Source of the DNA: Labilibacter sediminis
Lineage (GTDB): Bacteria > Bacteroidota > Bacteroidia > Bacteroidales > Marinilabiliaceae
DNA length: 56,357 nucleotides
Direction: 5' to 3'
NCBI RefSeq assembly: GCF_005877885.1
Contig: NZ_VCHY01000029.1
Location: 1-56,357 of the forward strand
Shown here: in pieces, positions 2,724 to 56,286 of the stretch
Layout of the letters: every line of letters starts with the position of its first letter
Position numbering within the stretch: the first letter of the stretch is position 1
Notes under the pieces: generated by a model
The model's database searches: none
Told to the model about the DNA's origin: nothing
Seen by the model: the letters and a program-made list of their open reading frames with translations, nothing else
Made by a program: the position numbers and the translations under genes

Positions 2724-3207
2724 ATCGCATAACTAAGGAGCTAATATTTCCTTTATGAGGGTTATATAATCACCTTTGATAGTGTCATTCGTGTTACTTA
2801 AAGTCTAATTTAAGCACAAAAATGCTTTAACATATTTAGTTCATAGTTTTATCACTTCTGTATATTCATTGCAGTTTATAAATATAAGGTGGTATAACAG
2901 AATCACTAAGTGGATTGTCGATCGTACTAGATAGAATAAAAAACTATTATATCGTTTGTTTCCCTATTTAGATGGCTTAATGTCCAATCTGGTAGTTTTC
3001 GCAATATGCGTTAGAAAACCTATTACGTAATGAAACTACTGCCAATCAAGGCGTAAACTAACTTGTTTCAACTCACCATAGCGGTGCTATGAGTCGTCTC
3101 GACAAGTCCTTGATTGTTTGCACTTTCATTCCTCATAACGATGTTCTAACACATAATCCGGGTTTAATATCTTAGTTGAAGGAAAATTTTGGAGTATATT
3201 CTTTGTA
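2724..3207. repeat. ~310-bp interspersed repeat, copy 1, interrupted by an inserted structured element
   Basis: This segment is similar along its length to 5901-6214: both begin ATCGCAT.ACTAAGG, share CCTTTATGAGGGTTATATAATCACC and CACTAAGTGGATTGTCGATCG cores, and end with a TTCTTTGTA word. This copy is about 170 bp longer because a structured element sits at about 2998-3164. Without it the flanks join as in the second copy. No coding capacity is seen. Confidence 0.75.
2998..3164 (-). repeat. 170-nt nested-stem repeat, copy A (divergent, minus orientation)
   Basis: Read on the minus strand, it follows the same plan as the six other copies: outer arms (TTATGTGTTAGAA / TTCTAACGCATA), a second stem AATGAAA / TTTCATT, a third stem AATCAAGG / CCTTGATT and an apical hairpin CATAGC / GCTATG. 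Sequence identity to the other copies is clearly lower, yet pairing is kept through paired changes, such as A-T to G-C in the outer stem and T-A to A-T in the second. It sits as an insertion inside the 2724-3207 repeat. Confidence 0.8.
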
Positions 3208-3249
3208 AAAATACATAAGACTGCTCTTAAAGAGGTTTATTCAGTACGT

Positions 3250-3308
3250 ATTTTGTTCCGAAGAGGCAGAATAGGGCCTTCCCCAAATACAACCCTTCAG
3301 AACAAAAC
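3250..3308 (-). terminator. Imperfect hairpin downstream of the cupin gene
   Basis: TTTTGTTCcGAAG near 3251-3262 pairs with CTTCaGAACAAAA near 3295-3307 across a ~33-nt loop. It lies 20 bp past the stop of the minus-strand cupin gene. The T tract is weak, so terminator function is tentative. Confidence 0.35.
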
Positions 3309-3330
3309 GTCAGACTATAACTATTTCAAA

Positions 3331-3894
3331 CTATCTTTTTGTGTCAATTATATTCTGTAATAGAAATTTACATTTTCCACAATCGGTACCTGCTCCTGTA
3401 ACTTCTCCAATTTTTTCAACTGTATCTGCACCACCTTTCACTGCATTAACTACAGTTTCAACAGTAACCATTTTGCATCCACATGCAAGTGATAATATTT
3501 TTTCAATATCTTTAATACAATTCCCACATTCGGTTCCGGCACCTGTAATTTCTTGTATTTCTTTTACAGTACGAGCTCCACTAACCATTGCTTTCCTAAT
3601 ATCACCATAGCTCACCTGTTTACAGTGACAAATAATTCGATTTACGGGAATAAGAATAGTCGTTACATACATATTCCCATCACTTTTAAGAGAGTGCTTT
3701 TTTCCTGCAGGGGCAACAAATACATCTCCTACATGCATCTCAACTTCCTTATCTTCTAAGATACCAACCCCTGAACCCTGAATACAATAAAAAATTTCGT
3801 CTTGAGTAGCATGTTCATGAAGAGGAACTTTTAAATCAGGATGTATATGATATACGTGTGTTTCGATTGCTTCCTGAATACTATTTAAATCCAT
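3331..3894 (-). CDS. Cupin fused to two tandem BFD-type [2Fe-2S] domains
   Basis: I choose the ATG at 3894 (MDLNSIQEAIE), which gives 187 residues; the 55 codons upstream run into repeat DNA and are unlikely to be protein. Residues 13-70 form a cupin: motif 1 PLHEHATQDE..YCIQG with metal-type H26, H28 and E33, and motif 2 GDVFVAPAGKKH with H67. Two bacterioferritin-ferredoxin-like (Fer2_BFD) modules follow, each with CxC then CxxC: C89/C91/C123/C126 and C138/C140/C172/C175. Each module carries the GAGT.CG.C signature. BFD modules usually bind a [2Fe-2S] cluster and transfer electrons. The three-part architecture is unusual. A metal- or redox-sensing or electron-transfer role is an inference. 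Confidence 0.85.
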   Translation of the reverse strand: MDLNSIQEAIETHVYHIHPDLKVPLHEHATQDEIFYCIQGSGVGILEDKEVEMHVGDVFVAPAGKKHSLKSDGNMYVTTILIPVNRIICHCKQVSYGDIRKAMVSGARTVKEIQEITGAGTECGNCIKDIEKILSLACGCKMVTVETVVNAVKGGADTVEKIGEVTGAGTDCGKCKFLLQNIIDTKR

Positions 3895-4000
3895 AATAAT
3901 TATTGTTTTATGTTGTCTATTTCGATTATTATATGACTTGTTCAAAATCAACAATAGAATACTCGTATAAGAGAAAATTGTTGATATATTCAACAGTAAA

Positions 4001-4270
4001 TTAACCTGAGTTCGACATAAAATTATTGGCTCAGACCGCTTATTAATATTGAGTTTCAAGAAATATTTGTGAAGGTATAGCGGGCTATATCAAACAAATA
4101 TGACGTAGAAAATCGATGTTAATAAGTGGTTTTACTAGAACTTTTTAATAAAACACTAATCTACTGCGTAAAATAATATTAACATAGCTCGCTATGCCAA
4201 TATTATTTTACTTATATATCAGTATTTTATTAAAATCTGAGCTAAATAATTTTAATCGAACTCAGGTTAA
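4001..4270. repeat. 270-bp MITE-like element with ~35-bp terminal inverted repeats
   Basis: Both ends read inward as TTAACCTGAGTTCGA, followed by an ATAAAATTATT..GCTCAGA stretch, as near-perfect inverted repeats (4001-4035 and 4236-4270). The interior has a second inverted pair (TATAGCGGGCTATA near 4077 and CATAGCTCGCTATG near 4183) and no reading frame. One end abuts the stop codon of the SDR gene at 4272. A lone end of the same type lies at 26845. Confidence 0.75.
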
Positions 4271-4271
4271 A

Positions 4272-5144
4272 TTAAGAATACACCTCTTTTAAATACTCCT
4301 CAACCGAAGTTGCTTTTCTTCCAATCAACTTTTCAATTATTGAGTTGGTATTGTCGAGCTCCCCCTCAATCATTGCCAGTGAGAATCCTGCAAACAGACC
4401 TATATATTCTGCAGGTACACCTGCTTCTGTCAATGTTTTGTTGAACTCTTCCACAGAAGGAGAAGTATAACGAATCGTTTTTCCTGAAATATTAGAAATT
4501 ATAGTAGCTATGTCATAGTAAGAATATGCCTTATCAGCTGTGATATCATATTCCTTATTTTCGTGTCCCTCGGTGGTAAGAATGTGTGCAGCAACCTCTG
4601 CCATATCCTCTCTCAGGGTAAATGCAGCCTTACCTTCACCGGCAGGCAGATAAATAAGCCCAGTTTCTAGTACTTCTTTACCAACAAACAAGGGAAGCAT
4701 ATCCATATATAAATTATGCTTCAATATGGTGTGCTCCATACCCGATTCTTTCAACCAGGTTTCGGTATCAATGTGATCTTCAACTACAAATGAAATTGGC
4801 GAAGTTTTTTCTTCGTTTTTGCGCTGGAAACTAGTATAAATAACATGCTTTACTCTTGTTTCTTTAGCTGCATTCACAACATTTTTGTGCTGCATCGAAC
4901 GACCTTCAAAATCACTACCTGAGATAAAAAATAATTTATCTATACAGTTAAATGCTGCAACAAGCGATTCATATTTTGTGTAATCGCCAATTCGCACATC
5001 AATACCTTCGTTTTTTAAATCTTCAATTTTATCAGTATTACGAACTAATACGGCAATATTTTCTGCATCCATCTTTGTTAATAAATGCTTAATAACTGAT
5101 TTTCCTAAATTCCCTGATGCCCCTGTAACTAAAATTTTATTCAT
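4272..5144 (-). CDS. NAD(P)H:quinone oxidoreductase type 2-like / NmrA-type atypical SDR
   Basis: This is a 290-residue soluble Rossmann protein. It opens with the nucleotide motif TGASGNLG (residues 7-14) and continues with a GDYTKYESL segment, FFISGSD and YTSFQRK, the layout of the QorB/YtfG-like atypical SDR group. Enzymes of that group reduce quinones with NADPH in the cytosol. The gene is divergent from an HxlR regulator 160 bp away, the same arrangement as E. coli ytfG/ytfH. The stop codon lies 1 bp from the end of a MITE-like element, so that insertion borders the gene without visibly damaging it. Substrate is not provable from sequence; redox or electrophile response is the likely theme. 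Confidence 0.85.
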   Translation of the reverse strand: MNKILVTGASGNLGKSVIKHLLTKMDAENIAVLVRNTDKIEDLKNEGIDVRIGDYTKYESLVAAFNCIDKLFFISGSDFEGRSMQHKNVVNAAKETRVKHVIYTSFQRKNEEKTSPISFVVEDHIDTETWLKESGMEHTILKHNLYMDMLPLFVGKEVLETGLIYLPAGEGKAAFTLREDMAEVAAHILTTEGHENKEYDITADKAYSYYDIATIISNISGKTIRYTSPSVEEFNKTLTEAGVPAEYIGLFAGFSLAMIEGELDNTNSIIEKLIGRKATSVEEYLKEVYS

Positions 5145-5209
5145 TTTATTTTTATTTAATTGTTAAACTTAGGTTGATTACGAAATGTATATTACTTACT
5201 TTTGGTGAG

Positions 5210-5236
5210 TCAAAGATATATAGTTAGTATCTTTGA
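5210..5236. promoter_or_regulatory. Candidate HxlR operator (TCAAAGATA-N9-TATCTTTGA)
   Basis: A perfect 9-bp inverted repeat (5210-5218 and 5228-5236) lies between the divergent oxidoreductase and HxlR genes. A direct repeat ACTTACTTT brackets it at 5194-5202 and 5263-5271. HxlR-type dimers commonly bind inverted repeats in such divergent gaps, so this is the obvious operator. It would control both genes. Confidence 0.6.
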
Positions 5237-5304
5237 CACAATAAGGTACAGCCAAGTGTCATACTTACTTTCAAGAAACTATTATTGATTTACAATTAAA
5301 TAAA

Positions 5305-5670
5305 ATGGAAAATAATTTGAAAAATTTTTCGGTTTCCGAAAAATGTCCCGTAAGAAATGTATTAGACCGTTTTGGAGATAAGTGGTCTATATTAGTACTC
5401 CTAGTTTTGGGAGAAGTAGAAAAAATGCGTTTTAATGCCTTACATAAAACAATTCTAGATATATCGCAGAAGATGTTAACAGTTACCCTACGTAGCCTTG
5501 AAGCCGATGATTTGGTTAAACGTACTATTTATCCCGAAATCCCTCCAAGAGTTGAGTATGAGATTACAGAGAGAGGGAAATCTTTATTGACGCACATTCA
5601 TAATTTAACTGCCTGGGCTGAAGAGAATATGTTGGATATTTTAGAATCAAGAGAAAAGTTTAAGTCTTAA
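5305..5670 (+). CDS. HxlR/YtfH family winged-helix transcriptional regulator
   Basis: This is a 121-residue cytoplasmic DNA-binding protein of family length. The HxlR hallmarks are visible: C14 in KCPVRNVLDRFGDKWS, the recognition region RFNALHKTILDISQKMLTVTLRSLE and the wing YPEIPPRVEYEITERGKSL. In related regulators (YodB, HypR, QorR) the N-terminal cysteine senses quinones, diamide or other electrophiles. The conserved C14 and the divergent quinone-reductase-like neighbour support a redox-sensing repressor of that enzyme. The inverted repeat at 5210-5236 is the candidate binding site. Family: high confidence. Ligand: inferred. Confidence 0.92.
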   Translation: MENNLKNFSVSEKCPVRNVLDRFGDKWSILVLLVLGEVEKMRFNALHKTILDISQKMLTVTLRSLEADDLVKRTIYPEIPPRVEYEITERGKSLLTHIHNLTAWAEENMLDILESREKFKS

Positions 5671-5900
5671 TTTATTTGTATACATTTTTAAAATATCTAT
5701 TTATTCTTCGTTCGATTACAAACAACATATCTTTTTATAATTTTAACTCTTAAATTGGCTTATAAGCTCATCAAACTCAAATTTAAAAATTGTCTTTATG
5801 AACGTACAGCGTTGGAGGAAAAATAAAATAGTGCAATTCTATATGAAATCCCCTTGTAGCTAACTAACAAATCACTTCACCACTCGTGTCTTATTTAAAT

Positions 5901-6214
5901 ATCGCATTACTAAGGTGCAATATTTCCTTTATGAGGGTTATATAATCACCCATGTTAGTGCCATGCATAGTTACTTGTAATCTAATTATAGCAAAAAAAT
6001 GTTTTAATATATTTAATCCATAGTTTTATTGCTTCTGTATATTAATTGCGGTTTATAAACGTAGGGTGGAATAACAGAATCACTAAGTGGATTGTCGATC
6101 GCACTAGATGAAATAAAATCTATTTATATGGTTTGTCTCCTTATTTAGATGGTTTAATAATTAGTCTGGCAGCTTTAATATCTAAATTAAAAAAATAGGA
6201 GTATGTTCTTTGTA
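5901..6214. repeat. ~310-bp interspersed repeat, copy 2 (empty-site form)
   Basis: This is homologous to 2724-3207 but continuous: CTGGCAG runs straight into CTTTAATATCT near 6173, exactly where the other copy carries the structured insertion. Downstream, 6235-6330 repeats part of the 1020-1110 region. The rest of the 5671-6460 gap has no recognisable gene. Confidence 0.75.
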
Positions 6215-6460
6215 TCATGACTATTATTACTGTAAATGAAAGCAGAGTTAAGCTTGCTTGAACTATGCAGAATGAGGCAATAATCTTTTGTAAAAAAAAA
6301 TGAAGTCGAGTTTGGGCGAATCGTCAATAAGGTTTAAACGTATACGATAGGATTGTACTGTAATGATTGTTACCTGAAAATATTTGAAAATACACGCCGC
6401 CGAATGATATCGAGCGAGGTTAATATATTCTTTACGCCTAATTTTTGCGGAGCAAACATA

Positions 6461-7324: not shown

Positions 7325-7432
7325 TTTGAATAGTTTATTGATGAAGAATAACTCGACTTGTAAAAGTTTAACACCAAGCTTGTTTGATTGTTTACAGGTA
7401 AACATGTCCTACATATTTAGAAGATTTCACAT

Positions 7433-8134
7433 CTGTCCTAAACGTTCAAATCGTTTTTTGCTTGAATTCCTTGAGGAACGAAGGTGATGAGTTTAAACGA
7501 TTTCAGTCAAATGACCGTTAGTTTCTTGAATGAATCAGGTGTAGCCTTGAATTTTTGCTAAGAGCGTGGGTATTGGCAAGTTCTCTTGTGCAATGCTGAG
7601 CGATGCAAAAATCATGAAATAATTTTTTTACCTGCCTGCCGACAGGCCATAGCCGTCAAGCTAAAGCTATCTTATATTTTGTAAAGTGTTATTACTTAAG
7701 GCTGAAGATCTTTTGAGAAAGTATTTGGAATAACGTGCTGAAGGCACAGCTTATCCCAGCCCCATGCAACGCATGGGGTTATACAAGAAGGGAATCAGCG
7801 TCCTGAAAGGACAGCTCAAAATAGGGTTAAGTTGTCCCTTCAGGACGCTGATTAACAAAACTGACAAACCCCAGGTGTCACTGCGTTTTACCTGCGGCTG
7901 TGATGAGCTAGGCCTTCAGCCTGCATTTGTTTGATTCTTGATGATTTATATGTATAAAAGATGAGAAAAAGGGTAGGTCCGAACAATATTGTTATTCTTA
8001 GCCTGCCGGCTATGGCCTGGGGCAGGCAGGCTTAGTTTTTGTCATCAAGAACATCGGAATGATTAAGAATTGAATATTCTTAATTGTTTCAGCAGTAAGT
8101 CTGGTTTGGGCGACGCACCAATTATTTAGGACAG
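7433..8134. repeat. Second CTGTCCTAAA-bounded composite region
   Basis: It begins CTGTCCTAAACGTTC (7433) and ends TTTAGGACAG (8125-8134), like 277-1139, and encloses a complete copy of the 372-bp hairpin element. The stretch 7490-7610 (GAGTTTAAACGATTT..ACCGT.GTTT..CTTGAATTTTTGC) is a divergent relative of the inverted repeats that flank the second regulator at 32.2 and 34.6 kb. No transposase is present. Confidence 0.55.
7645..8017. repeat. 372-bp multi-hairpin inverted-repeat element, copy 2
   Basis: This is a full-length copy with ends GGCCATAGCCGTCA and TGCCGGCTATGGCC. G/C-rich words CCTGCCTGCC and GGCAGGCAGG lie just outside and extend the inverted symmetry to nearly 28 bp. The central hairpin has arms at 7796-7813 and 7833-7850 around loop GCTCAAAATAGGGTTAAGT, in the same orientation as copy 1. 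No conserved reading frame. Confidence 0.85.
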
Positions 8135-8559
8135 CTCTGTTATCAAATATATTTAGATAATGGAAGAAGAATTATCACACCTTCATTAGATTAATTTTTT
8201 CAATAATAAATCTCAATTAATAAAGGGAAAATTAAATACAAGTCCATTCTTGCCATGTTCATTTAGAGGTAATAGTCATCTTTTTGTTCCTTATTTCTAC
8301 CGCCCTTTTAGGCAAAATGTTTAAAAGTGTATAAAAATATTTGTTTTTGTAAGTGGCTGATATTTAACGGCAAGAGGTAGTGTGTATATCCCAATTAACC
8401 ACCAAATAACCACTGTATACCATTAGTAGAGATTGAATTTTAGGTATGCCAAATCATACCAATTATCATTGCATTGTCGAAAAGTATAAGTCAATACAGT
8501 AAACTCTAATATCAAATATTTTAAGAAATGCGCCATGTTGAATAAGGCAAGTTTCATTA

Positions 8560-8729
8560 AACCCGCATTATGTATTAGAACTTCGTTATGAACATTGAAA
8601 GCACGATAAAACAAGGCTTTACTGAGACGAGGCATAGCATCGTTCTGGTGAGTTGAAGTGAAGCAACAAAGTGTCTTGATTTGAAGTGATATCAATGTGT
8701 AATAGATTTTCTAATGCATAAAGCGGGTT
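8560..8729 (+). repeat. 170-nt nested-stem repeat, copy B
   Basis: The outer arms AACCCGCATTATG.. and ..CATAAAGCGGGTT are intact, and the inner arms ACATTGAAA / ATCAATGT pair less perfectly than in the other copies. The flanks read TTAA on both sides. It lies 24 bp upstream of the susC leader, so it could be transcribed into the susC 5' region or sit in its promoter zone. A minus-strand frame across it is a by-product of the repeat. Confidence 0.85.
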
Positions 8730-8753
8730 AAAAAAAACTAATGAAAAAAACAC

Positions 8754-15292: not shown

Positions 15293-15296
15293 AACC

Positions 15297-15698: not shown

Positions 15699-15847
15699 CT
15701 AGTGCTCATAAAATATCATTGAGGTCATGTAAATAAGCTCTCCTTCTTTAAAAGGAGGAGAAATAAAGGTTTTAGTGTGAAAAATACATGCTTCAAGCTA
15801 ATTATTTGGAAAAACGATTTCTAAGTAAATCACCTTTAAAACATTTA

Positions 15848-16017
15848 AACCCGGATTATGTATTAGAACTTCGTCATGAACATTGAAAGGACAATAAAAC
15901 AAGGCTTTACTGAAACGAGGCATAGCATCGTTCTGGTGAGTTGAAGTGAAGCAACAAAGTGTCTTGTTTTGAAGTGATTTCAATGTGTAATAGGTTTTCT
16001 AATGCATAAAGCGGGTT
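15848..16017 (+). repeat. 170-nt nested-stem repeat, copy C
   Basis: This is a full copy (AACCCGGATTATG.. to ..CATAAAGCGGGTT) with TTAA on both sides. It lies between the small lipoprotein gene and the GH5 gene. The intervening 16018-16154 holds a CTTGATACTTG tandem (about 16107-16142) and the GH5 start region. No other feature is seen in this 456-bp gap. Confidence 0.85.
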
Positions 16018-16154
16018 AAATGAAACTAGCATGGACAGAGCAATAATTGAGTACATACACGAATGGTTATCAAAAGAAACACTGTGTCTCTAGGTCTTGG
16101 CATTCAACAGTCTTGATACTTGATACTTGTGTCTTGATACTAATTTTTAAACAC

Positions 16155-24935: not shown

Positions 24936-25307
24936 GGCCATAGCCGTCAAGCTAAAGCTGTCTTATATTTAGTGAAGCGTTAGTACTTAAGGCTGAAGAT
25001 CTTTTGAGAAAGTATTTGGAATAACGTGCTGAAGGCACAGCTTATCACAGCCCCATGCAACGCATGGGGTTATGCAAGAAGGGAATCAGCGTCCTGAAGG
25101 GACAACTTAACCCTATTTTGAGCTGTCCCTTCAGGACGCTGATTAACAAAACTGACAAACCCCAGGTGTCACTGCGTTTTACCTGGGGCTGCGATGAGCT
25201 AGGCCTTCAGCCTGCATTTGTTTGATTCTTGATCATTTATATGTAAAAACATGAGAAAAAGAGTAGGTCCGAACAATATAGTTATTCTTAGCCTGACGGC
25301 TATGGCC
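24936..25307. repeat. 372-bp multi-hairpin inverted-repeat element, copy 3 (inverted loop)
   Basis: The ends GGCCATAGCCGTCA and TGACGGCTATGGCC are perfect inverted repeats. The central hairpin has perfect 18-bp arms (25087-25104 and 25124-25141). Its 19-nt loop ACTTAACCCTATTTTGAGC is the exact reverse complement of the loop in copies 1 and 2. The element ends 37 bp before the sugar-porter ATG and would be part of its upstream region. Confidence 0.88.
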
Positions 25308-25344
25308 TGCTGGCAGGCCTGCAACAAATGAAAATTATAAACAC

Positions 25345-28581: not shown

Positions 28582-28620
28582 ATGGCCTTCTGAGATTATT
28601 TTCAGGAGGCCATATTGTTT
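28582..28620 (+). terminator. Hairpin terminator after GH30
   Basis: ATGGCCTTCTGA (28582-28593) pairs with TCAGGAGGCCAT (28602-28613) with one wobble. A short T-rich tract follows. It marks the probable end of the glucan locus and abuts copy D of the structured repeat. Confidence 0.65.
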
Positions 28621-28778
28621 AATCCCGCATTATGTATTAGAACTTCGTCATGAGGATTGAAAGTGCAATAAAACAAGACTTTACCGAAACGAGGCATAGC
28701 ATCGTTCTGGTGAGTTGAGGTGAAGTAACGAAGTGACTTGTTTTGAAGGAATTTCAATGTATAATAGATTTTCTAATG
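28621..28778 (+). repeat. 170-nt nested-stem repeat, copy D, left part (split by IS110)
   Basis: The copy runs from AATCCCGCATTATG to TTCTAATG and then stops matching the family. The missing right arm reappears at 30076 as GCATATTGTGGGTT, 16 nt with three differences from the family arm. That piece still pairs with this copy's left arm (CCCGCATTATG), including a G-T wobble. The IS110 element lies exactly between. Confidence 0.75.
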
Positions 28779-28823
28779 AATTCTATGGTTAATCCAAGAA
28801 TATTAGGTTTAAATTTAATAAAA

Positions 28824-30252: not shown

Positions 30253-32133
30253 ATGGTTAATCAACCTTCAATGGATGATCAATTTCTCATTAAGGTTCAT
30301 CAGGTTATCGAAGATAATATCGATAATGAGAACTTTGGTGTTGAGGATTTAGCTGACTCAGTTGGCTTAAGCCGGTCGATGTTGCACAGAAAACTGGTTA
30401 AGCTGACAGGTAAATGTGCAAGCGAGCATATTACACAAAGCAGGTTGCTGAATGCGAAATCTATTTTGGAAGATAATAGTGCAACCGTATCGGAAACAGC
30501 TTATAAGGTTGGGTTTAAAAGTCCCAGCTATTTCATCAAAGTATTTAAAAAATATTTTAATGTATCACCCGGTGATGTAAAAAAAGGAATGATAACTGAT
30601 CGCACGGTTAGTTTAAGTGATTTGGATCCCAAAGCAGGAAAGCTTGATTATTCAAAAAAACTCTTCATCAAACAAGAAATACTGATTATATTTTTCATCA
30701 TATTATTAGTTGGTGTTGGTACTTATATGTGGATCTCATTGTCCGAGCCTACTCAAAAATCCATAGCTGTACTTCCTTTTAAAAATCTTAGTGAGGATGA
30801 AACTAATCAATATTTTGCCGATGCCATGATGGCAGAACTATTAAACAATCTCTCTCATATGAAAGGCCTTAAAGTTATCTCTCGAACCTCTTCAGAAAAA
30901 TATAGAGATAGTAATAAATCCCTACCGGAAATTGCGGAGGATCTGCACGTTTCATATATAATAGAAGGAAGCGTTCAGAAATACGAAAATAGTGCAAATA
31001 TTTCTATCCAGCTTATTGATGCACGAAAGGATCAAACTCTATGGTCGGAGAATTTTAACAGGGAACTTAAAGATATTTTTAAGCTGCAAAGTGAAATAGC
31101 CAAGCAAGTCGCTTCAGAACTGGAAACGGTTCTTTCTCCAGGAGAAATTGAACAAATAAACAAAACACACACCACAAACCTGGAGGCCTATAACCTATAT
31201 CTTAAGGGTAGGTTTTTCTGGGATAGACGAACTGAAAACGATGCGAAAATAAGCTTGCAATATTTTAAGCAATCACTTGAAATGGATTCTAATTATAGTT
31301 TGGCCTATGCAGGTTTAGCAGATGCTTATCATATTCTTGCCTCATGGGGATGGTATCCAAAGATAGAAGGTTATTCTAAAAGTAAAGCATATGCCTTAAA
31401 AGCACTCAGTATCAATAATGATCTTGCAGAAGCCCATGCAACCCTGGGTTGTCTTAATATGGATTACAACTGGAATTGGGATGTTGCAGAGAAAGAGCTC
31501 ATGCTAGCCATAGAACTCAATCCTAATTATGCTACTGCTCATCATTGGTATGCTGGTTACCTGAGAGATGTGGATAAGCAGGATAAAGCGAGGGTACATA
31601 TTAACCGGGCTATTGAGCTTAATCCACATGCTATACATATGCATTCGAGTAGTGTATGGACTTATATGGGACAGCAAAAATACAATGAAGCATTAAAAGC
31701 AGCAGAAAAAGTTAATGAACTGGAAAATGACCGGATACCTTTGGATTGGATAAAAATTCCAATGTATATGCAGCAAGGCAATGACTTAAAAATAATAGAA
31801 GTTTTGCAACAAAATAAAGACATACAAAAAGCCTTGGAAAAAGATTCCGCTACACTGACAGATATGTATAATAAAACAGGAATAGAAGGTGTTATCCGGT
31901 ATAGGATTAAGCACTTTATGAAAGAAAAATACCGTTCTGATTTTAATTGTATGGTAGCCAGATATTTTTTATGCATAAACGATAAGGATGCTGCCTTGGA
32001 TTACCTGGAAAAAGCTTTTGAATTATATGAACCGCCTTTACCAAGCATCAAGTACGATTTGCATTTTAAACCCCTCCGCAATGAACCTCGTTTTCTTGAA
32101 CTATTAAATAGAATGAACATGGGAGGTTATTAA
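30253..32133 (+). CDS. Membrane-tethered AraC-type regulator with TolB-like and TPR sensor region (paralog 1)
   Basis: This is 626 residues. Residues ~10-115 form an AraC-type double helix-turn-helix at the N-terminus (VEDLADSVGLSRSMLHRKL; then ETAYKVGFKSPSYFIKVFKKYFNVSPGDV). A single transmembrane helix spans ~142-164 (EILIIFFIILLVGVGTYMW). A TolB-N/FlgO-like domain follows (~170-290: SIAVLPFKNLSEDETNQYFADAMMAELLNNL, YIIEGSVQKYENSANISIQLIDA), then TPR-type helices to the end. Expected topology: DNA-binding domain in the cytosol, TolB-TPR region in the periplasm. It would sense a periplasmic signal, plausibly glucan fragments, and activate nearby genes. It stands first in a tandem of three close paralogs. 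Confidence 0.9.
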   Translation: MVNQPSMDDQFLIKVHQVIEDNIDNENFGVEDLADSVGLSRSMLHRKLVKLTGKCASEHITQSRLLNAKSILEDNSATVSETAYKVGFKSPSYFIKVFKKYFNVSPGDVKKGMITDRTVSLSDLDPKAGKLDYSKKLFIKQEILIIFFIILLVGVGTYMWISLSEPTQKSIAVLPFKNLSEDETNQYFADAMMAELLNNLSHMKGLKVISRTSSEKYRDSNKSLPEIAEDLHVSYIIEGSVQKYENSANISIQLIDARKDQTLWSENFNRELKDIFKLQSEIAKQVASELETVLSPGEIEQINKTHTTNLEAYNLYLKGRFFWDRRTENDAKISLQYFKQSLEMDSNYSLAYAGLADAYHILASWGWYPKIEGYSKSKAYALKALSINNDLAEAHATLGCLNMDYNWNWDVAEKELMLAIELNPNYATAHHWYAGYLRDVDKQDKARVHINRAIELNPHAIHMHSSSVWTYMGQQKYNEALKAAEKVNELENDRIPLDWIKIPMYMQQGNDLKIIEVLQQNKDIQKALEKDSATLTDMYNKTGIEGVIRYRIKHFMKEKYRSDFNCMVARYFLCINDKDAALDYLEKAFELYEPPLPSIKYDLHFKPLRNEPRFLELLNRMNMGGY

Positions 32134-32623: not shown

Positions 32624-34498
32624 ATGGATACCCAGGTTTCCATAGATGATCAATTTCTCACTAAGGTTCACCAGGTTATCGAAGATAATATTGATAATGA
32701 GGACTTTTCAGTGGAAGATCTGGCTAATTCGGTTGGCTTAAGCCGGTCGATGTTGCACAGAAAACTGGTTAAGCTGACAGGTAAATGTGCCAGTGAGCAT
32801 ATTACCCGGAGTAGGTTGCTAAATGCGAAATCTATTTTGGAAGATAATAGTGCAACCGTATCGGAAACAGCCTATAAGGTTGGGTTTAAAAGTCCCAGCT
32901 ATTTCAATAAAGTATTTAAAAAATATTTCGATATATCACCTGGTGATGTAAAAAAAGGAATGATAACTGATCGCACAGTTGGTTTAATTGATTTGGATCC
33001 CAAAGGAACAAAGCTTGATTATTCAAAAAAACTCTTCATCAAACAAGAAATACTGATTATATTTTTCATCATATTATTTATAGGTGTTGGTACTTATATG
33101 TGGATCTCATTGTCCGAGCCTACTCAAAAATCCATAGCAGTACTTCCTTTTAAAAATCTTAGTGAGGATGTTACAAATCAATATTTCGTAGATGGCATGA
33201 TGGAGGAATTATTGATCAACCTTTCCGGCATTGAAGGATTAAAAGTTATTTCACGTACATCCTCAGAAAAATACAGAGGAAGTGATAAATCTGTACCTCA
33301 GATAGCAAAGGAACTCAGGGTTTCCCATATTATAGAAGGTAGTGTGCAAAAGAATGACAATGACGCTAAAATTTTTATACAACTTATCGATGCTCGAAAG
33401 GACCAGCATGTTTGGTCAGAGAGCTATACAAGAAAATTAGTAGAAATTTTTAATGTACAAAGTGAAGTAGCCAAACAGGTAGCTACCAAGCTGAATACTG
33501 TTCTTTCTCCTGAGGAAGCAGAAGAGATGGACAAGACACATACGCAGAATTTGGAGGCATATAACCTGTATTTAAAAGGTCGATTTTTCTGGCATCGAAG
33601 AACCGAAATGGATGTAAAAAAAAGCATTGATTATTTTAATCAAGCGCTTGTAAAAGATCCAAATTATAGTTTGGCCTATGCGGGTTTGGCAGATGCTTAT
33701 CAGATTCTTGCGTGGTGGGGGTGGTATCCCCAGGCGGAAGGTTTTATTAAAGGAAAAGAATTTGCGGAAAAAGCACTCACCATAGATGAGAGTTTATCTG
33801 AAGCTCATGCTACCTTAGGTATTATTATGATGTTTCATGATTGGGATTGGGAAAATGCAGAAAAAGAGTTGAAACTGGCTTTAGCGCTTAATCCAAATTA
33901 TGCAACGGCACATCAATATTATTCTGAGTACCTGCATATAATGGGTGAAAAATATGAGTCGAGAAAACACATAAACCGCGCCATTGAGCTTAATCCTCAT
34001 GCTATAATAATGCACTGGTTAAGTTTTTGGTATTATATAGGCCAACAAAAATTCAGTGAAGCATTCGAAGTAGCAGAACAAGTTAATGAGTTGGAAAAAG
34101 ACCGTATTCCATTAGATTGGATATATATTCCTATGTATATGCAGCAAAGCAATGACTTAAAAGTTATAGAAATATTGCAAGAACAAACATATATTCAAAA
34201 AGCCCTTGAAAATGATTCTGTTAACCTTATGGATATTTATAAAAAATCAGGTATAAAAGGAGTAATTCAATTGCGTATCAAATTAAGGTTGAAAAAAGAT
34301 GATACACCAAACAAAGGTATAGCCAAAGACTATGTATGGATTAATGAAAAGAGTGCTGCATTGGACTATCTTGAAAAAGCTTATAAAGCACGTGAGTTAA
34401 ATTTGCCTTCTATAAAATATGACCCCGATTTTAAGTCCCTCCGTAATGAACCACGTTTTCTTGAATTATTAAATAGAATGAACATGGGAGGGTATTAA
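32624..34498 (+). CDS. Membrane-tethered AraC-TolB-TPR regulator (paralog 2)
   Basis: This is 624 residues with the same order as paralog 1: AraC helix-turn-helix (~10-115, VEDLANSVGLSRSMLHRKL), one transmembrane helix (~142-164), TolB-like domain (~170-290, YFVDGMMEELLINLSGIEGLKVISRTSS) and TPRs. The DNA-binding half is nearly identical to paralogs 1 and 3, while the TolB-TPR half is clearly more divergent, so the copies likely read the same DNA site but sense different cues. The C-terminal words RFLELLNRMNMGGY match paralog 1. The gene is bracketed by ~290-bp inverted repeats, so the unit could be flipped or excised by recombination. Confidence 0.9.
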   Translation: MDTQVSIDDQFLTKVHQVIEDNIDNEDFSVEDLANSVGLSRSMLHRKLVKLTGKCASEHITRSRLLNAKSILEDNSATVSETAYKVGFKSPSYFNKVFKKYFDISPGDVKKGMITDRTVGLIDLDPKGTKLDYSKKLFIKQEILIIFFIILFIGVGTYMWISLSEPTQKSIAVLPFKNLSEDVTNQYFVDGMMEELLINLSGIEGLKVISRTSSEKYRGSDKSVPQIAKELRVSHIIEGSVQKNDNDAKIFIQLIDARKDQHVWSESYTRKLVEIFNVQSEVAKQVATKLNTVLSPEEAEEMDKTHTQNLEAYNLYLKGRFFWHRRTEMDVKKSIDYFNQALVKDPNYSLAYAGLADAYQILAWWGWYPQAEGFIKGKEFAEKALTIDESLSEAHATLGIIMMFHDWDWENAEKELKLALALNPNYATAHQYYSEYLHIMGEKYESRKHINRAIELNPHAIIMHWLSFWYYIGQQKFSEAFEVAEQVNELEKDRIPLDWIYIPMYMQQSNDLKVIEILQEQTYIQKALENDSVNLMDIYKKSGIKGVIQLRIKLRLKKDDTPNKGIAKDYVWINEKSAALDYLEKAYKARELNLPSIKYDPDFKSLRNEPRFLELLNRMNMGGY

Positions 34499-34987: not shown

Positions 34988-36883
34988 ATGGGTACTCAAC
35001 CTTCCATAGAAGATCAATTCCTTACTAAGGTTCATCAGGTTATCAAAGATAATCTCGATAATGAGAACTTTTCAGTGGAAGATCTGGCTAATTCGGTTGG
35101 TTTAAGCCGATCGATGTTGCATAGAAAGTTGATAAAACTCACGGGTAAAAGTGCCAGTGAACATATTACCAGGAGTAGGTTGCTGAATGCGAAATCTATT
35201 TTGGAAGATAATAGTGCAACCGTATCGGAAACAGCCTATAAGGTTGGTTTTAAGAGTCCCAGTTATTTTAATAAAGTATTTAAAAAATATTTTAATGTAT
35301 CACCCGGGGATGTAAAAAAAGGAATGATAACTGATCGCACAGTTAGTTTAATTGATTCGGATCCCAAAGTAAGTAAGCTTGATTATTCAAAAAAACTCTT
35401 CGCCAAGCAAGAAATACTGATTATATCTTTCATCATATTATGCATTACAATTGGTGTATATTTATGGGTGTCATTATCCGAACCCAATCAAAAATCCATA
35501 GCGGTACTACCTTTTAAAAATCTTAGTGAGGATGTTACAAATCAATATTTCGTAGATGGCATGATGGAAGAATTATTGATCAACCTTTCCGGTATTGAAG
35601 GATTAAAAGTTATCTCACGTACTTCCTCAGAAAAATACAGAGGAAGTGATAAATCTGTATCTCAAATAGCAAAGGAGCTCAGGGTTTCCCATGTTATAGA
35701 AGGTAGTGTGCAAAAGAGTGAGAATAATGTTAAAATATTCGTTCAGCTTATTGATGCACAAAGGGATCAACATCTATGGTCTGAAAGTTTTACAAGGGAA
35801 TTTGTGGAAATTTTTAATGTACAAAGTGAAATAGCCAGGCAGGTAGCAACGGAATTAAATACCGTTCTTTCTCCGGAAGAAAAAGAAGAGATTGAAAAGA
35901 CATATACAAAAAATATGGAGGCTTATAGTCTTTACTTAAAAGGACGTTATTTTTGGCATAGAAGAACAGAACAGGATGTGAAAAAAAGCATTGAGTATTT
36001 TAATCAAGCACTAATACAAGATTCAAATTATAGTTTGGCCTATGCAGGTTTAGCAGATGCCTACCATATTCTTGCTTTTTATGGTTGGTACTCTTGGGTA
36101 GAAGGTTGGGAAAAAAGTAAAGAATATGCAAATATAGCTCTAAGCATTAATAGTAATCTCGCAGAGGCTCATGCTACTCTTGGTTGTATTGCTACCTGGT
36201 ATGATTGGAACTGGGAAAAGGCAGAGCAGGAACTAAAGATGGCTATTAAGCTCCGTCCCAGTTATGCTTCGGCTTATCAATATTATTCAGAATATCAAAG
36301 AGTGCTTGGTAATTATGAAGATGCTATAAGGCAGATTGATATTGCCATTGAGCTAAATCCAAACTCTTTAATCATGTATCATATTCGATCGCTCTATTAT
36401 TATCATACGGGAGAGTATTCAAGGGCATTAAGAGATGGCGAAAAAGTATTTGAAATTGAGAAACAAAATATATTACAGCTATGGTTAAACTTTAAAATAC
36501 ATATTAGGCAAGGAAGTGAAGTAGAGGCTGTTACTGAATTGCAAAAACTCATATATATAAAGGAACCTGATTTGAATTCGGAAAAGCTGTTAGGTAATAT
36601 TTATGCTAACAAGGGAATTGAAGGGATTGTCGAATGGGTTATTCACAGGCAGGTTACAGAAAATTATTTTAATTATTCAAATGCAGTTATTGATAATCGA
36701 TTCATAGCCGAGCTATTTTCATTAAACAACGAATGGGACTCTGTTATGGTTTATTTAAGGAGATATGTAGAGTCTGACATTGTTAGACCAGATTGGTTTA
36801 GGTATAGTGCCGATTTTAAAAAGCTTGAAAATGACCCGGGATTTATGGCGTTATTGAAAGAAATTGGTTTGGATGAATTGTAG
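34988..36883 (+). CDS. Membrane-tethered AraC-TolB-TPR regulator (paralog 3)
   Basis: This is 631 residues. AraC helix-turn-helix (~10-115), transmembrane helix (~142-164, EILIISFIILCITIGVYLWV), TolB-like domain and TPRs follow the same order as its two neighbours. The TolB half is close to paralog 2 (YFVDGMMEELLINLSGIEGLKVISRTSSEKYRG is shared), but the last ~200 residues diverge strongly from both and end FMALLKEIGLDEL, so the tip of the sensor is distinct. The next gene, a T9SS glycosidase 270 bp away on the same strand, is a plausible target. Function inferred from domains. Confidence 0.9.
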   Translation: MGTQPSIEDQFLTKVHQVIKDNLDNENFSVEDLANSVGLSRSMLHRKLIKLTGKSASEHITRSRLLNAKSILEDNSATVSETAYKVGFKSPSYFNKVFKKYFNVSPGDVKKGMITDRTVSLIDSDPKVSKLDYSKKLFAKQEILIISFIILCITIGVYLWVSLSEPNQKSIAVLPFKNLSEDVTNQYFVDGMMEELLINLSGIEGLKVISRTSSEKYRGSDKSVSQIAKELRVSHVIEGSVQKSENNVKIFVQLIDAQRDQHLWSESFTREFVEIFNVQSEIARQVATELNTVLSPEEKEEIEKTYTKNMEAYSLYLKGRYFWHRRTEQDVKKSIEYFNQALIQDSNYSLAYAGLADAYHILAFYGWYSWVEGWEKSKEYANIALSINSNLAEAHATLGCIATWYDWNWEKAEQELKMAIKLRPSYASAYQYYSEYQRVLGNYEDAIRQIDIAIELNPNSLIMYHIRSLYYYHTGEYSRALRDGEKVFEIEKQNILQLWLNFKIHIRQGSEVEAVTELQKLIYIKEPDLNSEKLLGNIYANKGIEGIVEWVIHRQVTENYFNYSNAVIDNRFIAELFSLNNEWDSVMVYLRRYVESDIVRPDWFRYSADFKKLENDPGFMALLKEIGLDEL

Positions 36884-36971
36884 TTTTTTGTCCTAAACTG
36901 CCAATATTATAATTTATTAATTTTTAAACGATAACTTTATGAGGTAGGTATAATCTGATGGTTTATCATTA

Positions 36972-37141
36972 AACCCGCATTATGTATTAGAACTTCGTCA
37001 TGAACATTGAAAGCACGATAAAACAAGGCTTTACTGAAATGAGGCATAGCATCGTTCTGGTGAGTTGAAGTGAAGAAACAAAGTGTCTTGTTTTGAAGTG
37101 ATTTCAATGTGTAATAGATTTTCTAATGCATAAAGCGGGTT
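36972..37141 (+). repeat. 170-nt nested-stem repeat, copy E
   Basis: This is an intact copy with all four stems, flanked by TTAA on both sides. It ends 12 bp before the ATG of the glycosidase gene at 37154, so in a transcript it would form the whole proximal 5' UTR. Its 3' outer arm would cover the ribosome-binding region. Confidence 0.85.
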
Positions 37142-37153
37142 AAATCCTTACAA

Positions 37154-40578: not shown

Positions 40579-40612
40579 ATAAAGTTGGTTTTGCTCTGTT
40601 ATTTTAGAGTTG

Positions 40613-40802
40613 AACCCGTATTATGTATTAGAACTTCGTCATGAACGTTGAAATCACGACCTGCCAGCCGGCAGGCTGGTAAAACAAGGCTTTACTGAAA
40701 CGAGGCATAGCATCGTTCTGGTGAGTTGAAGTGAAGCAACAAAGTGTCTTGTTTTGAAGTGATTTCAATGTATAATAGATTTTCTAATGCATAAAGCGGG
40801 TT
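40613..40802 (+). repeat. 170-nt nested-stem repeat, copy F (with G/C-rich insert)
   Basis: This copy is about 20 nt longer than the others because of a G/C-rich insert near 40659-40679 that folds on itself (CCTGCC-AGCC-GGCAGG). The insert sits between the second and third stems. TTGA occurs on both sides (40610-40613 and 40801-40804) as a direct, not inverted, repeat. It lies between asnA and the end of nudC. Confidence 0.85.
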
Positions 40803-40806
40803 GAAG

Positions 40807-52443: not shown

Positions 52444-52448
52444 TGTAG

Positions 52449-52829: not shown

Positions 52830-52876
52830 CCAGGTAAATCGACTTTAAACCAGTGATGGGATATTTGAAAATATTC

Positions 52877-52957
52877 AACCACAGATTGACACGAATTTGC
52901 ACAGATTTTTATTTTCCGAAGGAAAATAATTCGTGTTAATCCGTGAGATTTGTGGTT
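52877..52957. repeat. Imperfect inverted repeat with central perfect hairpin
   Basis: AACCACAGATT..ACACGAATT pairs imperfectly with AATTCGTGTTAAT..ATTTGTGGTT. The centre TATTTTCC-GAA-GGAAAATA is a perfect 8-bp hairpin. Such CACAGATT/ATTCGTG words recur in many Bacteroidota genomes as intergenic repeats. The rest of the gap contains only the promoter of the next gene. Confidence 0.6.
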
Positions 52958-53011
52958 TTAATATTTTTTTTGGTTTAAAAGCGAAATCCCTGTGAAGAGC
53001 TGGCACTAATC

Positions 53012-53041
53012 TTGGTAATGCCAGAAAATTAGATATATTTG
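53012..53041 (+). promoter_or_regulatory. Promoter of the small lipoprotein gene
   Basis: TTG (53012-53014) and TATATTTG (53034-53041) are spaced by 19 nt and match the Bacteroidota consensus. The ATG follows 34 bp later. Confidence 0.7.
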
Positions 53042-53075
53042 TAGACATTTTTTTATTAATCTAAACATTAAACAC

Positions 53076-53576
53076 ATGAAAATCTATTTCCCAAAAATGA
53101 TTTCGTTTTTTGCTGTTGGTTTCTTTATGCTCACTGCCTGTGGAGGTGGTAGCGATCCTAAACCGGAAGATCCGGTGGATGAGGCAAAACCAACTATTTC
53201 GACTGATTCACCAACAGAAGGGTTGGGTATTGCTATGACAGAACCTTTTGTATATAAGGGAACATTTGAAGATGATGTAGAGTTAAGCAAGGTGGTATTT
53301 TCTTTAAAGGATCAGAAACCAGCAGGGGTAGCAGGATTAAAAGCGGCAACAGGTGTGGATGATAATCCATGGGAACCTGCTGCAGAAACAGTTACTCTAT
53401 CTGGAAATTCCAAAACGCTGGATCAAAATATTTTTACTGCAGATTATAAAGATGATGGTAGTGGAACAATGGGTATTCCAAGAGATGTATATACCGGAGA
53501 ATATATTTTAACAATTACCTGTACAGATAAAGCAGGGAATGAAACAGTTGAGAATATTACAGTTGAGATTCAATAA
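53076..53576 (+). CDS. Small Ig-like lipoprotein (DUF4625-like)
   Basis: This is 166 residues. Type II signal peptide with lipobox MLTAC, then a GGGSDPKPEDPVD linker typical of surface-exposed Bacteroidota lipoproteins. One Ig-like domain follows (KPTISTDSPTEGLGIAMTEPFVYKGTFEDDVELSKVVFSL; ends TGEYILTITCTDKAGNETVENITVEI), resembling DUF4625. No enzymatic residues. It has its own promoter and terminator, so it is a single-gene unit. Role unknown. Confidence 0.8.
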   Translation: MKIYFPKMISFFAVGFFMLTACGGGSDPKPEDPVDEAKPTISTDSPTEGLGIAMTEPFVYKGTFEDDVELSKVVFSLKDQKPAGVAGLKAATGVDDNPWEPAAETVTLSGNSKTLDQNIFTADYKDDGSGTMGIPRDVYTGEYILTITCTDKAGNETVENITVEIQ

Positions 53577-53618
53577 ATCTCAAAGTGAATAAATATAGGA
53601 GGAATAACCTCTGAAATG

Positions 53619-53648
53619 AACCGGTGCTTTTGGGCATCGGTTTTTTTA
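53619..53648 (+). terminator. Rho-independent terminator
   Basis: AACCGGTGC pairs with GCATCGGTT (one G-T wobble) and is followed by a run of seven or more T. It ends the small lipoprotein gene. Confidence 0.85.
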
Positions 53649-53736
53649 TGCCTATAAAAATGGTGTGATTAATGAATGTTTGGATAGTGTAATTCTCAGT
53701 ACTAAATGCTTTTTTTGTATTTAAATACAGATGACT

Positions 53737-54921
53737 ATGAAATTTGATTTTGACGAGATAATAGACAGGGAAGGAACTGATGCCTTTAAATTAGAGTTAA
53801 GAGAAGCTTTTTTTGGAACCAATGACGTGTTACCATTATGGGTGGCAGATATGGATTTTAAAGCGCCACCTAAGGTAATTGAAGCTATTCAGGAAAGAGC
53901 AGCGCATGATATTTACGGGTATACCATCAGGGAGGAGAAGTTTACGGGTGCTATAGTGAACTGGCTTAAAACTCAACATGAGTGGGAGATTCAGGAAAGC
54001 AGTATTGAATTTACACCCGGTGTATTACCTGCTATTGTGGTAGCCATTCACGAATTTACCAATCCCGGTGATAAGGTGATTATTCAAACGCCGGTGTATC
54101 CTCCGTTTTATTCCATTGTAAGAGATAATAACAGGGAGTTGGTAAAGAATAGTTTAGTAGAAACTGAAGGTTATTATACCATAGATTTTGAAAGCCTGGA
54201 GGAGCAGGCCAGTGATCCGAAAACCAAGCTGTTTGTATTTTCTAATCCGCATAATCCGGTGGGTAGAGCCTGGAAATACGAGGAGTTAAAACGAATTGCT
54301 GAAATTTGTTTGAAGCATGAGGTGATGATCATTTCTGATGAAATACATAGTGATTTGTGCTTGTTTGGCAATAAGCATTTGATTATGGCTGATTTGTTTC
54401 CGGAGCTTAAAAGTCAGATTATTACCAGTATGGCACCGAGTAAAACATTTAATGTTGCCGGGTTATCAACGGCCTATGCTATTATTGAGGATGAGAAATT
54501 AAAATCTAGATTTCATAAGCAATTAAATGCCTTGCAATTGCATATGGGTAATCTTTTTGGCGGCGTGGCCTTAACGGCTTCATATAATTATGGCGTCGAG
54601 TGGTTAGAATCTTTGAAGTCGTATTTGGAATCTAACGCCTTATTGGTTGATTCATTTGTAAAAGAACATATGCCGGAGGTTGGCTTTGTGTTGCCCGAGG
54701 CTACTTATTTGCTGTGGTTAGATTTCAGGAAATGGGATTTATCTCCTGCAAAACTTAAAAAAGCAATGGTGGAAATAGGTAAGGTGGGACTTAATGATGG
54801 CGTTTCGTTTGGTGTTGAAGGTGCAGGTTTTCAGCGTTTAAATATAGGTTCGCCTAAGGCTGTTATTCAGGAAGGTTTGGAGCGAATCTTAAAAGTGCGC
54901 AACGAGGTTTATCATCCATAA
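53737..54921 (+). CDS. MalY/PatB-type PLP-dependent C-S lyase / aminotransferase
   Basis: I take the ATG at 53737 (MKFDFDEIIDRE), 394 residues; an ATG two codons earlier is equally possible. Fold-type I class I/II aminotransferase of the MalY/PatB branch: LPLWVADMDFKAPP, HDIYGYT, FTPGVLPAIV, SNPHNPVGR, ISDEIHSDL, and the PLP lysine in MAPSKTFNVAGL. MalY/PatB enzymes cleave cystathionine or cysteine conjugates (C-S lyase). Cytosolic. It precedes the glycerate kinase gene by 30 bp, so the two may be co-transcribed although the pathways differ. Confidence 0.93.
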   Translation: MKFDFDEIIDREGTDAFKLELREAFFGTNDVLPLWVADMDFKAPPKVIEAIQERAAHDIYGYTIREEKFTGAIVNWLKTQHEWEIQESSIEFTPGVLPAIVVAIHEFTNPGDKVIIQTPVYPPFYSIVRDNNRELVKNSLVETEGYYTIDFESLEEQASDPKTKLFVFSNPHNPVGRAWKYEELKRIAEICLKHEVMIISDEIHSDLCLFGNKHLIMADLFPELKSQIITSMAPSKTFNVAGLSTAYAIIEDEKLKSRFHKQLNALQLHMGNLFGGVALTASYNYGVEWLESLKSYLESNALLVDSFVKEHMPEVGFVLPEATYLLWLDFRKWDLSPAKLKKAMVEIGKVGLNDGVSFGVEGAGFQRLNIGSPKAVIQEGLERILKVRNEVYHP

Positions 54922-54951
54922 AATCATCATCCTTTAATCTTAATAGGAATA

Positions 54952-56070
54952 ATGAAACGTGTTTTCCTGGTATCCGATTCATTTAAAGGCTCATTATCAG
55001 CCACTGATATAAATAAAAATTTAACAAAGGGTTTGCTTCAGGGGAATCCTTTGTTAGATATTATATCTGCACCTTTATGTGATGGAGGAGAAGGTACGCT
55101 GGATACCTTAACAGATGCTTTGTCGGGCAGGAAAATAAGTTTTGAGGTTCATGATCCTTTGGGAAGAAATATAAAAGCTCAGGCTGGTATTGTGGATGAT
55201 GAAACTGCTATTGTGGAGATGGCTCAGGCATCAGGTATTGAGCGTCTTAGTGTTGAAGAGCTGAATCCTATGCAAACTTCTACCTACGGAACTGGTGAAC
55301 TGATAGATAAACTGATTGGTTTAGGTTATAAAAAAATCATTCTTACCCTTGGCGGAAGTGCAACGGTTGATGGAGGAACAGGTATCGTTCAGGCTTTGGG
55401 CGGTAAGTTTTATCATTCAGATGGTGCATTGTTACCTCCGAATAGCTCGCCTTTGTTTGAATACCATCGTTGCGATTTAAGTGGTTTTTTGAAAAGAACA
55501 GAAGGGGTGGCTTTTACGGTAGTGGTGGATGTGCAAAATCCTTTGTTGGGTGAGCATGGAGCAGCGGCGGTTTTTGGGCCGCAAAAAGGAGTCAGGCAAC
55601 ATCAGATGCAGGACTTTGATCATCAATTGTTGAGGTGGGCTCAGTTACTGGAAAAACACAGTGGCAAAAAGCTGACATCTGTAAAGGGAAGTGGTGCAGC
55701 AGGAGGTGCTTTGCTTCCTTTTTTAATGCATCCCGACACCAAAGTTGTTTCCGGGTTTTCCATGGTGAGTGAGCTGCTAAACTATGAACAAAATATAAAG
55801 AAATGTGATGTTCTCATTACAGGAGAGGGGAGTGTCGATGACCAGTCGTTTATGGGAAAAGGTGTGGGTAAATTGATTGATATGGCACATCAATATCATA
55901 AAGATGTTATTCTGGTGGTAGGGCAAAATCAATTAACAGATGGCAAGAATAAAAGCAAAGTCAACAAGGTTTGTGCTATTGCAGATATGGCAAATTCATT
56001 AAGTGATGCCATGGAAAACACGCCTGAGTATTTAACACAAATAGGTTTTAAGATTGGCAGAGAATTGTAG
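54952..56070 (+). CDS. Glycerate 2-kinase (GarK/GlxK family)
   Basis: This is 372 residues, the normal length. It phosphorylates D-glycerate with ATP. Family marks: VSDSFKGSLSA at the N-terminus, PLCDGGEGTLDTL, MAQASGIERL, TYGTGELI, LGGSATVDGGTGIVQALGG, VDVQNPLLGEHGAAAVFGPQKG and the C-terminal ITGEGSVDDQSFMGKG. It is the final gene before a copy of the 170-nt structured repeat. Confidence 0.95.
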   Translation: MKRVFLVSDSFKGSLSATDINKNLTKGLLQGNPLLDIISAPLCDGGEGTLDTLTDALSGRKISFEVHDPLGRNIKAQAGIVDDETAIVEMAQASGIERLSVEELNPMQTSTYGTGELIDKLIGLGYKKIILTLGGSATVDGGTGIVQALGGKFYHSDGALLPPNSSPLFEYHRCDLSGFLKRTEGVAFTVVVDVQNPLLGEHGAAAVFGPQKGVRQHQMQDFDHQLLRWAQLLEKHSGKKLTSVKGSGAAGGALLPFLMHPDTKVVSGFSMVSELLNYEQNIKKCDVLITGEGSVDDQSFMGKGVGKLIDMAHQYHKDVILVVGQNQLTDGKNKSKVNKVCAIADMANSLSDAMENTPEYLTQIGFKIGREL

Positions 56071-56116
56071 GTTGTGATAATGTCAATATTAGCTCAAAAA
56101 ATAAAGATCTTATTTT

Positions 56117-56286
56117 AACCCGCATTATGTATTAGAACTTCGTTATGAACATTGAAAGCACGATAAAACAAGGCTTTACTGAAACGAGGCATAGCATCGT
56201 ACTGGTGAGTTGAAGTGAAGCAACAAAGTGTCTTGTTTTGAAGTGATTTCAATGTGTATTAGATTTTCTAATGCATAAAGCGGGCA
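56117..56286 (+). repeat. 170-nt nested-stem repeat, copy G
   Basis: This is a full-length copy beginning AACCCGCATTATG and ending CATAAAGCGGGCA, so the terminal TT of the right arm is changed to CA. It lies 46 bp after the glycerate kinase stop. No terminator hairpin of the usual type is seen, so the repeat itself may end or protect that transcript. The remaining ~70 bp show nothing. Confidence 0.85.

Follow-up and report, generated by a model that had tools for sequence, protein, structure and literature searches.

A stretch of 56,357 nucleotides from contig NZ_VCHY01000029.1 of Labilibacter sediminis (NCBI RefSeq assembly GCF_005877885.1), called the window below, carries seven copies of an intergenic repeat. 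The repeat is a unit of 166 bp (CCCG...CGGG) with imperfect terminal inverted repeats of ~19 bp and no coding capacity, and is almost certainly a miniature inverted-repeat transposon (MITE), that is, a non-autonomous DNA transposon. All seven copies listed by the initial annotation were recovered with a covariance model derived from diverged copies (E values from 2.6e-27 to 8e-35), as was to be expected, since two of the 35 sequences in the model are window copies or their close kin. Beyond these copies and their opposite-strand readings, a single additional match was obtained in the window up to E 0.1 (E 0.017). The places given previously for the copies are right and their borders require correction: the element starts at CCCG, a few bases further inside, and the outer AA/TT belongs to the 5 bp target duplication. 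The copy at 28621, formerly described as split, is complete; its right terminus is altered, and the same five letters stand on both sides (Table 1). Not contained in that annotation are the mobility of the repeat, the 5 bp target duplications, the ends common to insertion sequences (ISs) of the IS1380 family and the copy number of at least 150.

Table 1. Copies of the MITE and associated features in the window.
Feature	Position	Strand	Covariance-model match	Remarks
MITE copy, diverged subfamily	2998..3162	-	2998-3162 (-)	TTAAA on left side, 3163-3167; right terminus decayed
MITE copy	8562..8727	+	8562-8727	target duplication TTAAA, 8557-8561 and 8728-8732
MITE copy	15850..16015	+	15850-16015	target duplication TTAAA, 15845-15849 and 16016-16020
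MITE copy, altered right terminus (..AATTCTATGG)	28624..28788	+	28624-28789	target duplication TTAAT, 28619-28623 and 28789-28793
MITE copy, reference in the analysis	36974..37139	+	36974-37139	target duplication TTAAA, 36969-36973 and 37140-37144
MITE copy with 20 bp insert	40615..40800	+	40615-40800	target duplication TTGAA, 40610-40614 and 40801-40805
20 bp palindromic insert CCTGCCAGCCGGCAGGCTGG	40660..40679	.		within copy 40615..40800
MITE copy	56119..56284	+	56119-56284	TTTAA on left side, 56114-56118; another element in place of the right flank
Start of second element, end CAATGTCGTTTAGTTAAG	56285..56357	+		inserted at MITE terminus; contig ends inside

Exact 5 bp target duplications of the TTNAA type flank 109 of the 149 full-length copies of the L. 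sediminis genome, compared with a mean of 42.5 and a maximum of 55 after shuffling of the right flanks among copies (500 shuffles). The duplicated sequences were TTTAA and TTAAA (46 each), TTCAA (5), TTTAT (4), TTGAA (3), ATAAA (2) and three singles; a 3 bp model (TNA) was dropped, the TTTAT and ATAAA copies fitting 5 bp. In a catalogue of eight genomes, which includes copies of the relative G004 that were excluded from the own-genome count, 74 of 122 copies have an exact target duplication, as do 12 of 28 copies collected across the class. When the joined flanks of each copy were used as query, a match across the junction was obtained in 8 of 153 cases; three of these are clean empty sites in paralogous repeats, in which TTAAA or TTTAA is present only once (loci L020/L290, L290/L020 and L021/L218). 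A junction-spanning match of the window copy at 2998 was not reproduced with shorter flanks, and no empty site is claimed there. The repeat is short, bounded by terminal inverted repeats, flanked by target duplications, matched by empty sites and dispersed in high copy number, as MITEs are; ends in common with an autonomous element were found in relatives and not in the own genome. The flanks of one further copy (L226) are similar, at 76-77% identity, to a continuous part of a locus with a DDE transposase (L110), and this copy therefore probably sits within a transposase gene or its remnant.

The genome of L. sediminis (6.36 Mb, 372 contigs) contains at least 150 full-length copies, and all 150 candidates scored were matched by the covariance model. 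The end motif, with up to two mismatches, was found at 287 termini (reversed control: 0), and 39 near full-length copies have 95-99% identity to the query, which itself brings the number to 40. No copy (E 1e-3) lay in six 20 kb stretches chosen regardless of copies, where ~2.8 were expected; copies may therefore be unevenly spread. By DNA similarity, carriers were found among 8 of 61 genomes, the own included (4 of 45 genera), and by a model search with stricter filters among 23 of 395 genomes sampled from the class, likewise including the own (14 of 197 genera). One of these (G412; E 7e-4, without element ends) is probably a chance match. Plasmids and phages gave no match to the one copy used as query. 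The relative G004 has 21 full-length copies, all of which lack an exact duplication of their own; for the most part they have longer flanks in common and seem to lie within a larger repeat. At its loci L187, L064 and L189 the common flanks are TGCGCCCAGAAA.. and ..CTATTGTTCTGG, with several copies within a few kb.

The reference copy with its immediate flanks (36970-37143) folds far better as RNA than shuffled sequences on both strands (z -8.8 for the + strand, -5.7 for the - strand) and also as DNA (+ strand, z -7.3), with 0 of 200 shuffles as good in any of these cases. The fold was evaluated on 35 copies with less than 92% identity from eight genomes, chosen from 115 full-length copies and aligned by sequence. 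RNAalifold returned 39 pairs, 27 of them with two-sided change, and nine outer pairs were added to give a 48-pair model. This model pairs 90.9% of cells (34-44% in slid controls), with two-sided changes in 32 of the 48 pairs (slid, 14-21) and in 167 cells (slid, 24-41; mean of shuffles 49.5, none of 500 reaching the observed value). On a FastTree tree, 73 pair-keeping double changes were counted, compared with a mean of 7.0 and a maximum of 16 in 200 re-partnerings of the columns and with 3-9 in slid models; 55 of the 73 concern pairs at column 31 or further in, past the element ends. A class-wide set was formed from 24 of the 28 copies (L263, L265, L268 and L272 were left out), aligned by sequence with the same structure imposed; it is not wholly independent, as its members were found with the covariance model, which contains the structure. 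The mean pairwise identity within the set is 58%; 88.4% of its cells are paired (slid, 41-48%) and 97 double changes are present (re-partnered, 10.2; maximum 20 in 200). The covariation is therefore real: in both sets compensatory changes exceed the controls, as expected of a functional structured RNA. The paired changes quoted initially for the divergent copy at 2998 are present in its sequence, and the claim of a selected structure, which rested on that one copy, is upheld by the 35 copies from eight genomes and by the 24 from other families within the class.

The core (~130 bp) forms a nested hairpin, in which the base pairs and several letters of the internal loops have been preserved throughout the class. 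An internal loop GU..UGA / G.AAUAG is nearly fixed in both sets. A second loop, AAUAAA / GAAG in the class-wide alignment, resembles a UAA/GAN internal loop and is a candidate for that motif.

The initial annotation had allowed for selection either on RNA or on extruded DNA. Selection probably acts on the + strand as RNA: by RNA parameters this strand is the stabler one in 34 of the 35 copies (-51.9 versus -37.4 kcal/mol) and in 23 of the 24 class-wide copies (-66 versus -52). Steps from Watson-Crick pairs to G.U also outnumber those to A.C (77 versus 31), a share of 0.71 where the rates at unpaired positions predict 0.56 (p 0.0013); among the own copies the counts are 53 versus 22 on terminal branches (expected share 0.58, p 0.026) and 75 versus 25 on all branches (expected 0.63, p 0.0097), all p values treating parsimony events as independent. 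Because the + strand folds better and G.U-making changes are in excess, RNA is favoured; folded single-stranded DNA is compatible with the same data. An explanation purely at the DNA level, in which the palindrome is maintained by template switching or by selection of a cruciform or folded single strand and has no function as RNA, is nevertheless improbable. Quasi-palindromes are corrected by template switching, DNA parameters also prefer the + strand (59 of 59 copies), and recent changes are not depleted in stems (2.0 events per site, compared with 1.46 in loops, counted on terminal branches for 114 different own copies), all of which suits maintenance at the DNA level. Template switching would, however, restore Watson-Crick pairs equally on both strands, in contrast to the excess of G.U-making steps, and G.U exceeds A.C among the existing pairs as well (125 versus 28 in the 35 copies, 68 versus 23 in the class-wide set). 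Unpaired inner letters are, moreover, better conserved than paired ones across the class (0.74 versus 0.67, p 0.022).

The genomic context was scored for 156 distinct own-genome copies, a few of which, at locus edges, were possibly counted twice, by using open reading frames (ORFs) of at least 100 aa. The intergenic position described previously was borne out for 147 copies, with one inside an ORF and eight unplaced. Between tandem genes, 48 copies lie in sense and 31 in antisense orientation (p 0.07; p 0.12 with ORFs of 80 aa); 41 copies are located between convergent and 27 between divergent genes. Tandem copies in sense orientation are nearer to the stop codon than antisense ones (median 88 versus 181 bp, p 0.045). 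The closeness of many copies to stop codons and the surplus of convergent over divergent sites are what a regulatory RNA module of the host (terminator, mRNA stabiliser or small RNA), adopted and kept by the bacteria, would produce. Such a module is nonetheless clearly unlikely: none of 32 copies from relatives has both neighbours in common with an own copy, and the 29 single-neighbour matches (E 1e-15) all have less than 50% identity. The orientation bias, weak in the own genome, is absent in relatives, and stems are not protected from recent changes. As no positions are shared, the repeat is more likely to be selfish than to be an RNA gene of the host. The turnover of positions together with the unprotected stems also makes single copies look expendable, even as the fold persists in the lineage, which suggests that the fold serves the element.

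Among IS families with 5 bp duplications and CC ends, IS1380 is, in our estimation, the best fit. Its transposase domain (Pfam PF13701) was found in 18 of 41 genomes searched, and 20 loci were taken for inspection. In G007 an IS of 1,393 bp has an intact 434 aa IS1380 frame between two MITE ends and TTAAT on either side; in G017 the MITE ends likewise flank an intact 434 aa frame, and at one more of these loci, in G006, a single MITE-like end stands beside a broken frame. The G007 and G017 proteins score 258 and 261 bits, above the IS1380 cut-off of 180 (NCBIfam NF033539). Similarity between the MITE and these two intact ISs is confined to 18-22 bp at the ends. In G025, which also has a MITE copy, at least five transposase 3' ends lie at contig breaks, and in the three IS ends inspected the MITE end adjoins TTTAA, TTTAA and TTTAT. 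At class-wide L122-like loci in G111, G214 and G446, 17-18 of the 19 end letters are matched, compared with a best value of 15, reached once, when 199 loci were read backwards; in G446 the end variant CAGTAG is common to IS and MITE. From these computed ends and the common target type in relatives, we infer that an IS1380-family transposase is very probably the mover of the MITE. A single-stranded element of the REP/RAYT or IS200/IS605 type, or an integron attC-like site, with one folded DNA strand as substrate, would account for an imperfect hairpin with one preferred strand and is hardly credible here, as insertion of IS200/IS605 and attC elements yields no such target duplication, the exact 5 bp duplications, like the empty sites, indicate a DDE transposase, and IS1380 elements have the same ends.

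In the own genome, an IS4-type transposase at C1:150501 (L099/L111), located between MITE arms, was first taken as the autonomous parent. It was ruled out, since it has ends of its own (CCTGCC..GGCCATAGCCGTCAAGCTAA) and the surrounding MITE derivative also occurs without it (L091 and L093); it is therefore read as an insertion into the derivative. Of ten own-genome loci with PF01609 transposases, only this one has a MITE-like end.

Taken as a whole, the explanation combining a MITE, an IS1380 mover acting in trans and a fold selected as RNA is given a probability of roughly 0.7. The transposase, supplied in trans, would recognise the ~19 bp ends (about CCCGNATTATGYATTAGAA) and insert the element, for the most part in intergenic DNA, into TTNAA-like targets, of which 5 bp are duplicated. 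The + strand would be transcribed, usually together with a neighbouring gene, and the transcript would have to fold as RNA for the lineage of the element to persist. Tentatively, the folded RNA might buffer or end the neighbouring transcript and so make insertion at gene ends tolerable. A bolder version treats the MITE as the DNA stage of a mobile non-coding RNA with class-wide distribution. Its transcript would have a conserved fold with non-canonical internal loops that hardly vary, and would act in trans in the life cycle of the element, for instance as a ligand of the IS1380 transposase or of the mRNA for it, or as a guide for insertion; such an RNA-assisted DDE transposon is doubtful.

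Several observations weigh against this combined explanation, among them the preference of DNA parameters for the + strand and the unprotected stems mentioned above. Inner columns of the 35-copy alignment are equally conserved whether unpaired (0.81) or paired (0.80, p 0.63). The preference for one orientation is weak: the first 75 copies (22 sense versus 9 antisense) gave p 0.03, and all 156 gave p 0.07; relatives other than G004 have 10 sense and 9 antisense copies, and between convergent genes there is no effect of distance (p 0.62). As to the mover, PF13701 was not found in the own genome (E 0.001; the transposase search there covered PF13701 and PF01609), and the majority of carriers, L. 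sediminis among them, yielded no gene of the IS1380 type; short-read assemblies readily lose ISs that are present in many copies. An L122-like match is present in just 5 of the 22 class-wide carriers (a number that includes the doubtful G412) and in 2 of 20 non-carriers, too slight a difference to carry weight, and only three of these five carriers have clear matching ends.

Other sequences were noted in or beside MITE copies and elsewhere in the window. The second element at the contig end (~330 bp, ends CAATGTCGTTTAGTTAAG) also sits in a MITE terminus at L106 (5633-5961), where it is flanked by a 10 bp repeat CCCGCTTTAT that is the MITE end itself, and its end adjoins MITE copies in L049 and L095 too; as it abuts several copies, it may favour MITE ends as insertion site. 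The 20 bp palindrome of Table 1, which recurs in L044, L047, L050, L091 and L093, occupies two different positions in MITE copies, and in L091 and L093 replaces the MITE core between them. A separate repeat family of ~370 bp with IS4-type ends (GGCCATAGCCGTCAAGCTAA) is located in the window at 623-989, 7662-8028 and 24953-25318. In its third copy the central hairpin of ~61 bp is inverted relative to the first two, as if the loop had been flipped (754-814 and 7793-7853 versus 25084-25144, 98% complementary). The window also contains three tandem paralogous genes of 624-631 aa (30253-32133, 32624-34498 and 34988-36883), the first of which combines an AraC-type helix-turn-helix with TPR repeats.

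No named family had been recognised initially, and a search of the whole window against Rfam (release 15) gave no match at gathering scores; with lax thresholds, one copy had four non-credible matches to eukaryotic or archaeal families, all far below cut-off. IS1380 ISs resemble the MITE in the terminal ~19 bp and the 5 bp TTNAA-like target; unlike the MITE, they code for a transposase, and the two are related by their ends only. Another MITE, BrickBuilt of Porphyromonas gingivalis, presumably has its host in the same phylum. According to the consulted portions of its description (PMC4596501), BrickBuilt is intergenic with predicted stem-loops (19 copies in one strain) and differs in being based on a 23 nt tandem repeat, in ends like those of ISPg1/ISPg9 and in duplications of varying length; IS1380 is not mentioned in those portions. 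According to PMC2229807, YPAL/RU-2 of Yersinia (~168 bp) is alike in length, intergenic site, palindromy, mobility demonstrated by empty sites and a possible effect on upstream transcripts; it has duplications of 3-26 bp, internal inverted repeats and enterobacterial hosts. The present MITE has a fixed 5 bp duplication, terminal inverted repeats and Bacteroidota-type hosts. ERIC/IRU/RU-1 and Correia/NEMIS are, in the same paper (PMC2229807), likewise small mobile intergenic repeats able to fold as RNA, with other hosts, other sequences and TA-type ends instead of CCCG ends and 5 bp TTNAA. Going by what is described of YPAL/RU-2, ERIC, NEMIS and BrickBuilt, the MITE is set apart from them by its ends, its duplication and its fold. 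MITE transcripts form stable stem-loops according to a review (PMC10969869), in the consulted sections of which the terms 'IS1380' and 'Bacteroid' are absent. Judged by the titles and abstract openings of the top literature matches, no description of this 166 bp element was found.

The element is accordingly of a known kind, a MITE; what is new is the core, which differs from the compared ISs and retains an RNA-like architecture throughout the class. To our knowledge, bacterial MITEs are usually viewed as IS remnants with cores free to drift. Here the core keeps one architecture at 58% mean pairwise identity while genome positions turn over. The covariance model allows annotation of a repeat that was matched in 22 further genomes of the class, one of them doubtful, and it can now be tested whether selection on the transcript, and not on the ends alone, decides which bacterial transposons persist.

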